Shown here: piece by piece, positions 9,191 through 18,780 of the stretch
How the letters are laid out: each line of letters opens with the position of its first letter
Position numbering within the stretch: position 1 is the first letter of the stretch
Made by a program: the position numbers and the translations under genes
The notes under the pieces: model-generated
Told to the model about the DNA's origin: nothing
What the model saw: only the letters and a program-made list of their open reading frames with translations
Databases searched by the model: none
Origin: Chitinophagaceae bacterium
GTDB lineage: Bacteria > Bacteroidota > Bacteroidia > Chitinophagales > Chitinophagaceae
Direction of reading: 5' to 3'
Length of the DNA: 53,636 bases
Assembly (NCBI GenBank): GCA_947453295.1
Contig: CANGGD010000002.1
Coordinates: 1-53,636, forward strand

Positions 9191-10441
9191 TTGTTATTCA
9201 AAGATTTAGAAATCATTAAGCCCATTCTTGATGCGGTTCATTCTGAAGGCTACACATCACCCACGCCTATTCAAGAAAAAGCAATTCCTCATATTTTGTC
9301 GGGAAAGGATTTATTGGGTTGCGCCCAAACAGGAACCGGAAAAACGGCAGCATTTGCTATTCCAATCTTGCAGTTATTAAGTAAGCCCTATGCTCAAACT
9401 CCGGGCGAACAAAATATTAGGGCTTTAATATTAACTCCCACCAGAGAATTAGCTATTCAAATTGAAGAAAGCTTTAAGGCTTATGGCAAAAATCTTCGAC
9501 TCAAACACCTCGTTGTATTTGGCGGTGTTAGCCAGGTTCCTCAAACCAATGCACTTCATAGAGGAACAGACATTCTTGTTGCAACACCAGGAAGATTGCT
9601 TGATTTAATGAGTCAGGGGTATATTAATTTAAATAAAATTGAATTATTTGTTTTGGATGAAGCGGACAGAATGTTAGACATGGGATTTGTACATGATGTT
9701 AAAAAAGTTATTACAAAACTTCCACAGAAAAGACAAACGCTTTTTTTCTCAGCTACTATGCCAAATGAAATACAATCTTTGGCTAACGCAATTCTTAATA
9801 ACCCAATTAAAGTAGAAGTAACGCCCGTTTCTTCTACCGCAGATACAATAAATCAATTGATATATTTTGTTGATAAAGACAATAAAAAATCTCTGTTGTC
9901 TTTTATTTTAGCAGATAAAACAATTCAGTCGGCTCTCGTTTTTACACGCACCAAACATGGCGCAGATAAGGTTGTAAAAGATTTATTAAAAATTGGTGTC
10001 AAATCTGAAGCAATCCATGGAAACAAATCTCAAAACGCCAGACAGCGAGCACTTAGTAATTTTAAAGATAGAACTACAAGGGTTTTGGTGGCCACAGATA
10101 TTGCAGCAAGAGGAATTGATGTTGATGAGCTTTCTCACGTTATTAATTATGAATTGCCTAATGTTCCAGAAACGTATGTACATAGAATCGGAAGAACAGG
10201 AAGAGCGGGATTAAATGGAGTTGCCTTTTCTTTTTGTGAGCATGAAGAGTTGCCTTATTTAAAAGATATTCAAAAGCTCATTGGAAAAGAAATCAAAGTA
10301 AATCAAGATCACCCCTATCACACACATATGGTTGTTCCTACCAAAGGGGGTGCTATTATAAAAAACCATTCTAAACCAAATAATCAACAAAAATTTAAAC
10401 CAAAGAAAAAAGAATATTTTTCTAGACAAAAATCAAATTAA
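9191..10441 (+). CDS. DEAD-box ATP-dependent RNA helicase (RhlE-like)
   Basis: [45 protein letters not shown]; starts at TTG. Confidence 0.94.
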
Positions 10442-10490: not shown

Positions 10491-11933
10491 ATGTTTAACA
10501 AAAGAACCAGAATTAAAGAATTATTAAAATCAAACTCGGTTGATTTTGAAACTACCGTAATGGGTTGGGTTAGAACTTTTAGAAACAATCAATTTATTGC
10601 AGTTAATGATGGTAGCACAAATAATAATTTACAAATTGTAGTGGCTTTGGGAATGTTAGATGATTCTACACTTAAAAGAATTACTACCGGGGCTTGCATA
10701 AAAGCAACAGGTAAAATCATAGCGTCTTTGGGTAAAGGACAAAAAGTGGAATTAACTGCTGATTCTATTGAAATTCTAGGAGATAGTGACGCAGAAAAAT
10801 TTCCACTTCAACCTAAAAAACATAGTCTTGAATTTTTGAGAGAAATTGCGCATTTAAGATTTAGAACAAATACGTTTGGTGCAATTTTTAGAGTTCGCCA
10901 TTCTTTAGCTTTTGCTATTCACGATTTTTTTAATAAAAAAGGGTTTGTGTATTTACACACGCCAATTATTACTGCAAGTGATGCAGAAGGCGCTGGTGAA
11001 ATGTTTAAAGTAACTACTTTTCCTTTAGACGGAACCGCTCCTAAAAGCGATGATGGCTCTATTAATTTTAAAGATGATTTTTTTGGTCGTAGTACAAACC
11101 TTACCGTTAGCGGACAATTGGAAGGAGAATTAGCAGCTATGGCTTTTAGTGATATTTATACCTTTGGTCCAACTTTTCGTGCAGAAAACAGCAACACCAC
11201 AAGACATCTAGCTGAGTTTTGGATGATTGAGCCAGAAATGGCTTTTAGTGATTTAGAAGACAACATGAATCTTGCTGAAGAATTTATAAAGCATATTATC
11301 AAATACGCTTTGGATAACAATAGAGAAGATCTGGAATTTTTATCACAAAGACTTGAGGAGGAAGAAAAACAAAAACCTCAAATAGAAAGAAGTGAAATGG
11401 GCTTATTGGAAAAACTTGATTTTGTAATAAATAATGATTTTGAAAGAATAACCTATACCGAAGCAATTGAAATTTTAAAAGAATGTTCTCACAATAAAAA
11501 AAAGAAGTTCCAATATATAATTGATAAATGGGGAATTGATTTACAAAGCGAACACGAAAGATATTTAGTGGAGAAGCATTTTAAAAAGCCGGTAATACTT
11601 ACTAACTATCCAAAAGAAATAAAAGCTTTCTACATGAGGCAGAATGACGATGGGAAAACAGTTGCTGCTATGGATATTCTTGCTCCTGGTATTGGAGAAA
11701 TTGTTGGCGGTTCTCAAAGAGAGGAGCGTTTGGAAAAACTAACACAACGCATGAACGAAATGCATATTCCAACCGAAGAGCTTGATTGGTATTTAGACAC
11801 AAGAAGATTTGGCGCTTGTCCTCATGCCGGATTTGGATTAGGTTTTGAAAGAATTGTACAGTTTGTAACAGGTATGGGAAATATAAGAGACGTAATTCCT
11901 TTTCCTAGATATCCAAAAAGCGCTTCCTTTTAA
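10491..11933 (+). CDS. asnS: Asparaginyl-tRNA synthetase
   Basis: 480 aa class II aa[50 protein letters not shown]-term [28 protein letters not shown]. Confidence 0.97.
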
Positions 11934-12541: not shown

Positions 12542-14674
12542 TTAGAAATGCTTACTTCTTTCGTCTACTATATCTGCTTGTTTTTTTAATCCTTCATACC
12601 ATCCATTAATTTGGCTTCTTATCGTTCCTAATTTAGTGGCTGCATTTTGTGCGATAACTTCTGGACTAGACGCTGGTTTTGTTTGAATTGAGTTTATTTT
12701 TATTAAATACACTCCCGATGTTCCTTCAATTGCTGGTGAAGCTTTTGTTTGATATGTTTTATTAAATGCGGCTCCAATCATTTTAGACTCCATACCAACA
12801 CCATTAATAATTTGTGAGTTAAAATAAATGGTTGAATCTGCACCAGCCATTTGAATTGTTTTTCCATAAGCAGAAGCTGCGCTTTCTAATGTTGGATTTT
12901 GTCCTATTTTTTTACTGATTATTTCTGCTTTTTTCTTGTTTCTAATAATCGCTTCACAACCAGATCTTGCTGTTGCGGTATCTTGTGTACCCTTTTCAAA
13001 AACTTTATCTAAAACAACAACAACAAATTGATCTCCTAAACTAAACGGCTCACTTACATCGCCCACCTTAGCTTCAAATGCCCATTTTACTATTGATCTC
13101 GCATCTTTAAGCACTCCAATACTATAATCATTTTCCTTTACTAATGAAGGTACAGCGTTTAAGCTCTTACCATTTTTTTCGATGAATTTTTCTAATCCGG
13201 CTTTTGTTTTTTCTGCTGATGCTTTTGTTGCCTCTAAACTTGATTTTCCAACAGTTTCGTCTGACACAATTATTTCTTTTCCAACCGAAGCAATTTTATA
13301 TGCAGGTTTAAAATCTTTTTGAGAGACTATATCTATAATGTGATAACCAAATTGTGTTTTAACCACACCTTTTGAACCTGTTGTTTTATTGAAACAAAAA
13401 TCATTAAACTCTGTTACCATTGTTCCATATCCAAATGTTCCTAAATCTCCACCTTTTATTTTACTACCTTGATCCGTAGAATATTGTAATGCTAAACCTG
13501 TAAAATCTCCACCTTTTGTGATAACATTATAAATACTATCAGCAAGTTTTTTAGCAGAAGAATCAGACATTAATTCTTTTCCTGTTGATGGATCATTAGT
13601 TCCAATTAAAATGTGTCTTGCTCTTACACTGTCAGGTAGTTGTTTTACGCCCAATAATTTTGAAATTAAATAATTTCCTTTATCAACATATGGACCATAA
13701 ACAACACCAGCAGGTAATTTAGCTAGTGTATCAATTGAACTATTATTAATTTTTGATTTTGGTAAATACTCATCTACAAAGTCTACGCTAGATAAATTTC
13801 TTGCAACAAACGCTTTTGAATTAGTATCTGTTTCAAATGAAGGTTTAATTTGATCTAACATTTGCTTTGTTGTTGCACTATCTGTTGAACTAGGAAGTTG
13901 ACTAAAAGAAACATATGAAATATTTCTTCCTGCTTCTTGTTTAAACAACTCTTTGTTTTTATTTACATATTCAGCAACATCATCACCTGTTACTTTTACT
14001 TTATCATCTGGAATTTCTGAATAAGGTATTGCCACATAAGAAATGGTTGAAAATGTTTCTGATTCTTTTTGCTCTTTATCTTTTAACCATGAAGGGTAAT
14101 AAGCGCTTGATGATAATAATGCAGAATATTTTGCAACTGTTGTGTTTAATTTTAGAGGATCTATTATTTGAGAATTTACAGAAGCTCTTTGTTCGCCTTT
14201 TAGCTTTTTAATATTATTTAAAGCTGTTTGTGCTTTTGAAACATCTAATTTTCCTGTTAATGAATCTTTTAATGCTTGCTCCTGTAAAAAAGGATTGTTT
14301 TGTTCATTACTTAATAATATGTATGATAACTCTTTAGACGTAAAACTTATTCCTAAATTTTCTGCTTCTTTAAAAAAGATTTTCTCTGCAACTAATTGAT
14401 CCCATATTCTATCTCTCAATTGATATGTTTCTTGGCCTGATGGTCTCTGTCCATATCTTTGCTCTTGCATATCTTCAGCTTCTTTAACTTTACTATTAAA
14501 AGTTGCTAATTCTATTTTTTCTCCATTAACACTACCTACATTATTTGAAAGAGAACCAAATAACTTATTTCCTCCTTGCTTCGCATCCATTAAAATAAAA
14601 CTTATTAAACTTAATGCTATTACAATAATAACTATTGCGGCACCTTTTTCACGAATACTTTGAATAATTTGCAT
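12542..14674 (-). CDS. Peptidylprolyl isomerase with SurA N-terminal domain (PpiD-like)
   Basis: 710 aa; N-terminal TM (MQIIQSIREKGAAIVIIVIALSLISFILMD); parvulin domain RARHILIG...GGDFTGLALQYSTDQGSKIKGGDLGTFGYGTMVTEFNDFCF. Confidence 0.92.
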   Translation of the reverse strand: MQIIQSIREKGAAIVIIVIALSLISFILMDAKQGGNKLFGSLSNNVGSVNGEKIELATFNSKVKEAEDMQEQRYGQRPSGQETYQLRDRIWDQLVAEKIFFKEAENLGISFTSKELSYILLSNEQNNPFLQEQALKDSLTGKLDVSKAQTALNNIKKLKGEQRASVNSQIIDPLKLNTTVAKYSALLSSSAYYPSWLKDKEQKESETFSTISYVAIPYSEIPDDKVKVTGDDVAEYVNKNKELFKQEAGRNISYVSFSQLPSSTDSATTKQMLDQIKPSFETDTNSKAFVARNLSSVDFVDEYLPKSKINNSSIDTLAKLPAGVVYGPYVDKGNYLISKLLGVKQLPDSVRARHILIGTNDPSTGKELMSDSSAKKLADSIYNVITKGGDFTGLALQYSTDQGSKIKGGDLGTFGYGTMVTEFNDFCFNKTTGSKGVVKTQFGYHIIDIVSQKDFKPAYKIASVGKEIIVSDETVGKSSLEATKASAEKTKAGLEKFIEKNGKSLNAVPSLVKENDYSIGVLKDARSIVKWAFEAKVGDVSEPFSLGDQFVVVVLDKVFEKGTQDTATARSGCEAIIRNKKKAEIISKKIGQNPTLESAASAYGKTIQMAGADSTIYFNSQIINGVGMESKMIGAAFNKTYQTKASPAIEGTSGVYLIKINSIQTKPASSPEVIAQNAATKLGTIRSQINGWYEGLKKQADIVDERSKHF

Positions 14675-15148
14675 AATAATTTTTTAAAAAATTTAGGTTG
14701 GCAAAAATAAGATAAAAAAAGGTATTAACAAACTGTGGATAAATGACATAGTGTGATTTTTTTTACCAACAACAAAATTGTTAATATTTCAATTTTATGT
14801 TGAAAACCCTTGTTTTAATAAATTTTAATTGGTTAAATAAAGTTGATAATAATATAAATATTATAATTTATTTTAAAATATACTTCAACTTAAATAACTT
14901 TTACAAAATATTTCAACAATTTTATTTTGATGAAAAATTAAATTTTATCCACTGATTATTTTATGCACAATTTTTAAAAAATCTTTATAAAAACTAAAAA
15001 TAGATAGATATTTTTGTTGTTTACTTGTTAATATCTGTGGAAAACAATAATAAATATTATAATAAAATAAATTTATGCTAGTTTTTCCACTTATTAACAC
15101 CCCTAATAATAATAAGACTATTAAATAAATAAAGTATTAATACATATT
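14675..15148. other. Putative chromosomal replication origin (oriC)
   Basis: Very AT-rich 474-bp divergent intergenic region. TGTGGATAA (14734-14742) is an exact DnaA box. Near matches: TTATCCACT 14945-14953, TTATGCACA 14961-14969, TGTGGAAAA 15036-15044, TTTTCCACT 15083-15091. TAATAATAATAAG run at 15104-15116. mnmG and parS-like sites lie nearby. Confidence 0.65.
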
Positions 15149-16147
15149 ATGGTAGATATACACAATGAAAGTTTTATAAAAAATCAAATTGATAATATAG
15201 GATTTTACAATATTGAAATTGATCCAACACTAAATCTATTTGAAGAAATTAGTAATTTAAAAAAAGAAAAAAATGCAATTATTCTTGCTCATTATTATCA
15301 AGACGCTGAAATACAAGAAATAGCAGATTATCTCGGAGATAGTTTAGGTTTATCTCAAAAGGCAGCTAATACGAATGCAGATATAATATTATTTGCTGGA
15401 GTACATTTTATGGCAGAAACTGCAAAGATTCTTAATCCCACCAAAAAGGTACTAATACCAGATTTAAAAGCTGGCTGCTCTTTAAGTGATTCTACACCTA
15501 CTGCTGAATTTAAAAAGTTTATAAATAATTATCCAAATCATATAGTTATTTCATACATAAATTGTAGTGCTGAAATAAAAGCTTTAAGTGATATAATTTG
15601 TACTTCTTCTAATGCTATTAAAATAGTTGAAAGTTTACCTAAAACACAACCAATAATTTTTGCACCAGATAAAAATTTAGGCAATTACATTAATAAAGTA
15701 ACAGGTAGAAACATGATTTTATGGAATGGATCTTGTATGGTTCATGAAATTTTTAATTTAGAAAAATTAATAAAATTAAAAATTCGACATCCAAAAGCTC
15801 AACTAATCTCACATCCAGAGTGTGAAGAAGAAATATTAGCTATCTCAGACTATATAGGAAGCACTACAGAGCTTTTAAGATATACACAACATAATCCTTC
15901 AAAAGAATTTATAATAGCAACAGAGGCAGGAATACTACATCAAATGCAAAAGTTAAATCCAAATAAAACTTTTATACCAGGACCAAACAACACAATTTGT
16001 GCTTGTAATGAATGTCCTTTCATGAAATTAAATACTTTAGAGAAAATTTATATTACATTAAAATATGAATTACCAGAAATTAATTTAGATAATGAATTAA
16101 TAAATAAAGCTATAATACCTATTAAAAGAATGCTTGAATTAAGCTAA
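15149..16147 (+). CDS. nadA: Quinolinate synthase
   Basis: 332 aa; [74 protein letters not shown]. Confidence 0.97.
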
Positions 16148-18723: not shown

Positions 18724-18739
18724 TGTTCCACGTGGAACA
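18724..18739. promoter_or_regulatory. parS: parS-like ParB binding site 1
   Basis: Perfect 16-bp palindrome TGTTCCACGTGGAACA, matching the parS consensus TGTTNCACGTGNAACA. Confidence 0.75.
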
Positions 18740-18764: not shown

Positions 18765-18780
18765 GGTTTCACGTGGAACA
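18765..18780. promoter_or_regulatory. parS: parS-like ParB binding site 2
   Basis: GGTTTCACGTGGAACA; one mismatch to TGTTNCACGTGNAACA. Centre is 41 bp from site 1. Confidence 0.65.

Follow-up and report, generated by a model that had tools for sequence, protein, structure and literature searches.

Our analyses of a 53,636-nucleotide stretch of DNA (hereafter, the window) very probably locate the chromosomal replication origin (oriC) of this uncultured member of the Bacteroidota in the divergent intergenic region between ppiD and nadA (14675..15148, unstranded). This assignment is based on the convergence upon this gap of a non-random cluster of DnaA boxes, a single-copy basal unwinding system (BUS) upstream of nadA, a turn in the GC skew and nearby parS sites. 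The evidence is evidence at the level of sequence, and it consists of the elements themselves, their order, conservation and spacing, the skew turn and the linkage to parS. A sequence-only reading of the window had put forward the same region as a candidate oriC, and this proposal is now supported by the boxes, the BUS, the skew turn (in a complete relative and in the window itself) and the conserved parS sites.

The window represents contig C2 of an assembly of 2.08 Mb in 173 contigs with an estimated completeness of 95.5%. Its genes and their nearest named relatives place the organism within the Chitinophagaceae, and its NadA protein exhibits about 70% identity to homologs from Niastella, Ferruginibacter-like metagenome-assembled genomes and Chitinophaga. 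The gap is 474 bp long and its GC content is 16.5%, in comparison to 31.8% across the window, which bears out the earlier description of an AT-rich divergent intergenic region. It is flanked on the left by a gene for a ppiD/SurA-type peptidyl-prolyl isomerase (12542..14674, minus strand) and on the right by nadA, which encodes quinolinate synthase (15149..16147, plus strand), and both the gene calls and the loci of relatives identify these genes as conserved neighbours. The strand layout in the sequence-only reading, in which most genes to the left were on the minus strand and those to the right on the plus strand, is broadly right, except that two left-hand genes, those at 9191-10441 (DEAD-box helicase) and at 10491-11933 (asparaginyl-tRNA synthetase-like), are called on the plus strand. 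Orthologous ppiD/nadA gaps of approximately 450-830 bp are retained in the genus and the family. The least stable stretches of 100, 200 and 450 bp in the window all fall or begin in the gap, the lowest-stability 100 bp of the entire window being found at 14814..14913 (unstranded), and our guess is that this AT-rich core may serve as a second unwinding element.

The gap contains a cluster of DnaA boxes, and all of those listed in the sequence-only reading (one exact, three with one mismatch and one with two mismatches) were recovered at the positions given there. The only exact box of the window, TGTGGATAA, is located at 14734..14742 on the minus strand, where it reads TTATCCACA. Three boxes with a single mismatch are present at 14945..14953 (TTATCCACT, plus strand), which coincides with a box position that is conserved throughout the genus alignment, at 14961..14969 (TTATGCACA, plus strand), identified by the box scan and the genus footprint, and at 15036..15044 (TGTGGAAAA, minus strand), where the genus shows strong conservation of GTGGAAAA. 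The footprint alignment for the genus reveals many additional conserved box positions in the gap, and several Chitinophaga ppiD/nadA gaps harbour five to nine boxes with at most one mismatch. One could suppose that the gap is an ordinary AT-rich divergent promoter region in which box matches have arisen by chance, as low GC content raises the likelihood of near matches and the consensus of the genus has a readable Bacteroidota-like promoter motif (TAnnTTTG) ahead of ppiD. However, dinucleotide shuffles of the 474 bp gap yielded on average only 0.005 exact and 0.17 one-mismatch boxes, and none of 3,000 such shuffles, which share its composition, reached the four boxes (one exact and three with one mismatch) that the gap contains. 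The intergenic cluster of DnaA boxes is therefore beyond chance, and with the deep conservation of the BUS described below, the conservation and shuffle tests already refute the promoter explanation, whose probability we regard as negligible.

The most diagnostic part of the region is the putative BUS at 15083-15116, in which a pair of weak, overlapping DnaA boxes is followed by a CCCC spacer and a run of DnaA-trios, in the order TTTTCCACT / TTATTAACA (one base being common to both), CCCC and TAATAATAATAAG, leaving 32 bp to nadA. Both boxes were recognised by the box scan and by conservation, are on the plus strand and carry two mismatches; the first (TTTTCCACT) occupies 15083..15091 and the second (TTATTAACA), which overlaps it by one base, 15091..15099. 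The GC spacer (15100..15103, plus strand), seen in the sequence and the genus alignment, is followed by four TAA trios and a G (TAATAATAATAAG, 15104..15116, plus strand; genus consensus TAATAGTAATAGG), which were identified by conservation. The second weak box, the spacer and the trio run were absent from the sequence-only reading. Beyond the trios lies a stretch of 91% AT (15117..15148, plus strand) that stood out in the stability scan and is highly conserved in the genus alignment; this stretch would be the first DNA to unwind and would also form the leader of nadA.

The BUS is known from Bacillus subtilis and most bacterial origins, where a short spacer separates tandem boxes from three or more trios on one strand; the published rule places these three or more trios no further than 16 bp from a correctly oriented DnaA box, with a peak in the distance from box to first trio at 10-13 bp (PMC8287927). 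The four trios of the ppiD/nadA gap (15104-15115) begin 12 bp from the first box, the better of the two, and 4 bp from the second, so that both their number and their spacing match these rules. The consensus of the element in the genus is TTTCCACATATTAACAGCCCTAATAGTAATAGG, and its distance to the start of nadA is almost fixed. To determine its distribution, an IUPAC pattern was searched over 71 genomes from the same genus and 48 genomes from other families of the order, with the reversed pattern as a control. Exactly one match was found in 60 of the 71 same-genus genomes, and nadA was directly downstream in all of the matches fetched (30/30). The pattern had no match in the 48 genomes from other families, and the reversed control pattern had none in the search. 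Among the 11 same-genus genomes in which the pattern was not matched, some also lack nadA, which is consistent with assembly gaps. Outside the genus, recognisable versions of the BUS are present upstream of nadA in the named relatives Niastella, Chitinophaga, Hydrotalea, Sediminibacterium, Terrimonas, Foetidibacter and Gynurincola. By the number of its trios, their distance from the boxes and its conserved position in related predicted origins, the element thus appears to be a BUS with DnaA-trios.

A BUS was also looked for upstream of nadA in the Sphingobacteriaceae and was not found there. In the Sphingobacteriaceae loci (L061-L098), nadA and nadB are arranged divergently in the region upstream of nadA. 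In Pedobacter, the DnaA boxes upstream of nadA keep to recurrent, fixed positions, but trios were not found among them.

The parS sites provide a further landmark of this region. The sequence-only reading had mentioned parS-like sites within 4 kb of the gap, and these proved to be real: a perfect palindrome, TGTTCCACGTGGAACA, is located at 18724..18739 and an imperfect second site, GGTTTCACGTGGAACA, detected by the motif scan, at 18765..18780 (neither has an assigned strand), both immediately upstream of mnmG. The assembly has no perfect match other than the former, which can be regarded as an origin-proximal centromere-like site. Ten genomes of the genus carry parS and nadA on a single contig, and in all of them the two are separated by 3-6 kb; in the complete chromosome of Chitinophaga sp. 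E66 all three perfect parS sites are located at 5.621-5.622 Mb, 3.5-4.5 kb from nadA. The gap is thus accompanied by origin-proximal parS sites. Pairs of parS sites are found near nadA even in the Sphingobacteriaceae, at a distance of 6.2-6.9 kb, and hence the neighbourhood of origin, nadA and parS may be older than the family Chitinophagaceae.

The direction of genes dominates the raw GC skew of the window, and we have therefore used strand-corrected skew at third codon positions, calculated on sampled stretches. Because our own genome of 173 contigs was too fragmented for a chromosome-scale curve, the complete E66 chromosome (6.29 Mb; 40 stretches sampled) was used in its stead. In E66, negative values of the corrected skew prevail between about 2.8 and 5.61 Mb, and positive values prevail from 5.62 Mb, past the start of the record, up to about 2.5 Mb. 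The skew switches to positive at the nadA locus (5.617 Mb) and back to negative roughly half a chromosome further on, a placement which is as expected for an origin and a terminus. The sequence-only reading had named a skew minimum far from the gap as evidence against its proposal; the skew minimum of this chromosome, the only complete relative sampled, falls at the nadA locus. The exact DnaA boxes of E66 are also concentrated here, 11 of the 45 being located within 39 kb (5.598-5.637 Mb) around nadA. Within the window, the corrected skew takes values of -0.126 left of the gap and +0.053 right of it, and a change at 14900 is supported by a permutation test (p of about 0.002); the best-fitting change point is at 19.1 kb, about 4 kb to the right of 14.9 kb, for a curve of 46 genes that has a resolution of a few kb. 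A long contig from the same-genus genome G089 changes from -0.04 on the left of the locus to +0.04 on the right. The skew is weak in the genus, and in G072 it is flat with no clear turn, so that this genome is not counted as support. The gap thus coincides with a GC-skew turn in E66 and in the window, the turn being weak or absent in G072. We have also observed in E66 three exact DnaA boxes exactly 72 bp apart, about 9 kb from its putative oriC (CP079103.1 5625924-5626076), which are perhaps a DnaA-titrating repeat.

The sequence-only reading had regarded a better cluster of DnaA boxes elsewhere as evidence against its proposal, and two loci with more exact boxes do exist in this genome, although neither has a BUS. 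The first, upstream of mraZ (contig C4, 15067-15167), consists of inverted boxes, two of them exact and one with a single mismatch; nearly fixed box positions, at about -200 to -155 for plus-oriented boxes and near -95 for a minus-oriented one, recur in almost all of the same-genus genomes examined. The second, in the dnaB/pheT intergenic region (contig C24, 7354-7459), has two exact boxes in the same orientation within about 100 bp, and at least two same-oriented boxes are present upstream of dnaB in most same-genus genomes. The suggestion that one of these loci is the actual origin can draw on their two exact boxes each, which exceed the number in the ppiD/nadA gap, and on the nearly fixed positions at mraZ. 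However, neither site contains the BUS pattern, contigs C4 and C24 lack a perfect parS, and the mraZ boxes together span no more than about 100 bp within a divergent promoter region. We have rejected both clusters as origins for want of a BUS or perfect parS, and it is extremely improbable that either is oriC. From their sequence context, they are best read as promoter-region DnaA-binding sites, and control by DnaA of the division-gene operon that begins with mraZ is possible.

The conserved groups of boxes at mraZ and dnaB show that non-origin sites exist in the genus, and the BUS is only 33-66 bp from the start of nadA. It could therefore be argued that the boxes of the ppiD/nadA gap constitute a regulatory or titration site for transcription of nadA, ppiD or both, the true origin being elsewhere. 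Yet the mraZ and dnaB sites are devoid of a BUS, of which there is one per genome; the skew turn, the box density and parS alike indicate nadA; and a role confined to promoters leaves the DnaA-trios unexplained. A purely regulatory function is, in our assessment, highly unlikely, and oriC is the much preferred interpretation of the gap.

The sequence-only reading had noted that this candidate origin is not adjacent to dnaA, of which it saw no copy in the window, and this is borne out. There is no dnaA in the window and none above the family cut-off across the 173-contig assembly, and in relatives dnaA is about 440-890 kb away from the nadA locus (443 kb in G026, 886 kb in G072, about 779 kb around the circle in E66 and 843 kb in Chitinophaga sp. 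YR573). The ppiD/nadA gap is hence outside the class of dnaA-adjacent origins. We have rejected the idea that the organism genuinely lacks dnaA; every relative that is at least 90% complete has a dnaA match, and the absence from our assembly is therefore most likely an assembly gap. In the assemblies of several relatives, dnaA is found about 500 bp or less from a contig end, which suggests that its neighbourhood is hard to assemble. In E66, dnaA matches as two overlapping pieces, one of them with stops (CP079103.1 108266-109650), which is probably due to a frameshift in the record.

The arrangement of these elements suggests how initiation might proceed, with DnaA binding, melting, helicase loading and initiation at the ppiD/nadA gap all proposed by analogy with characterised origins. 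DnaA would occupy the scattered boxes (14734-15044) as well as the overlapping pair at 15083-15099, from which ATP-DnaA would polymerise over the CCCC spacer onto the one-strand trios (15104-15116). The AT-rich DNA toward nadA would then melt, and helicase would be loaded in the melted DNA for both forks, leading to bidirectional replication. The parS sites located 3.6 kb rightward would allow ParB/ParA to separate the new origins. Given the nearly fixed distance between the BUS and the start of nadA across the family, one may also speculate that assembly of DnaA at the origin switches nadA, and thus NAD synthesis, on or off with the replication cycle; together with its conserved boxes at mraZ and dnaB, DnaA would then link replication, division and NAD supply in the Chitinophagaceae. 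We consider this idea rather unlikely.

These results provide a base-level predicted origin map (viz. boxes, BUS, trios and parS) for a common environmental family of the Bacteroidota, in which dnaA is no guide to the location of the origin. The single-copy BUS upstream of nadA constitutes a practical marker for oriC in fragmented metagenome assemblies, and it can be used to orient genomes and to estimate growth rates from the coverage of reads. Among the papers searched, none was found that places the origin of the Chitinophagaceae at nadA, but predictions for complete genomes of the family probably exist in DoriC.

The BUS is present in about 85% of the origins in DoriC, including that of B. 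subtilis (PMC8287927). The ppiD/nadA gap resembles BUS origins of the B. subtilis type in its cluster of boxes, in the short GC-containing spacer beside its tandem boxes, in its trios, of which there are at least three, in the AT-rich DNA beyond them and in the proximity of parS and mnmG/gidA. It differs from them in that it is not beside dnaA and is flanked by ppiD and nadA, and in that the two boxes of its BUS are weak and have one base in common and its trios are TAA rather than the commonest form, TAG. As in E. coli and other gammaproteobacteria, where oriC is beside gidA (mnmG), mnmG is close to the candidate origin, but here it is not adjacent, being located 3.7 kb away beyond nadA, a chrA-like gene and ybeY. 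Within the Bacteroidetes, an oriC distant from dnaA is common, and the predicted oriC of Prevotella intermedia OMA14 is an intergenic region of about 475 bp with multiple DnaA boxes and a skew turn, far from dnaA (PMC4755523). The ppiD/nadA gap is similar to it in size, in its multiple boxes, in the skew turn and in the remoteness of dnaA, whereas the report on that genome names neither a BUS element nor a nadA neighbour (PMC4755523). Both the dnaA-remote origins of Bacteroidetes (PMC4755523) and the widespread BUS (PMC8287927) are thus already known, and the predicted origin between ppiD and nadA is a well-supported new example.
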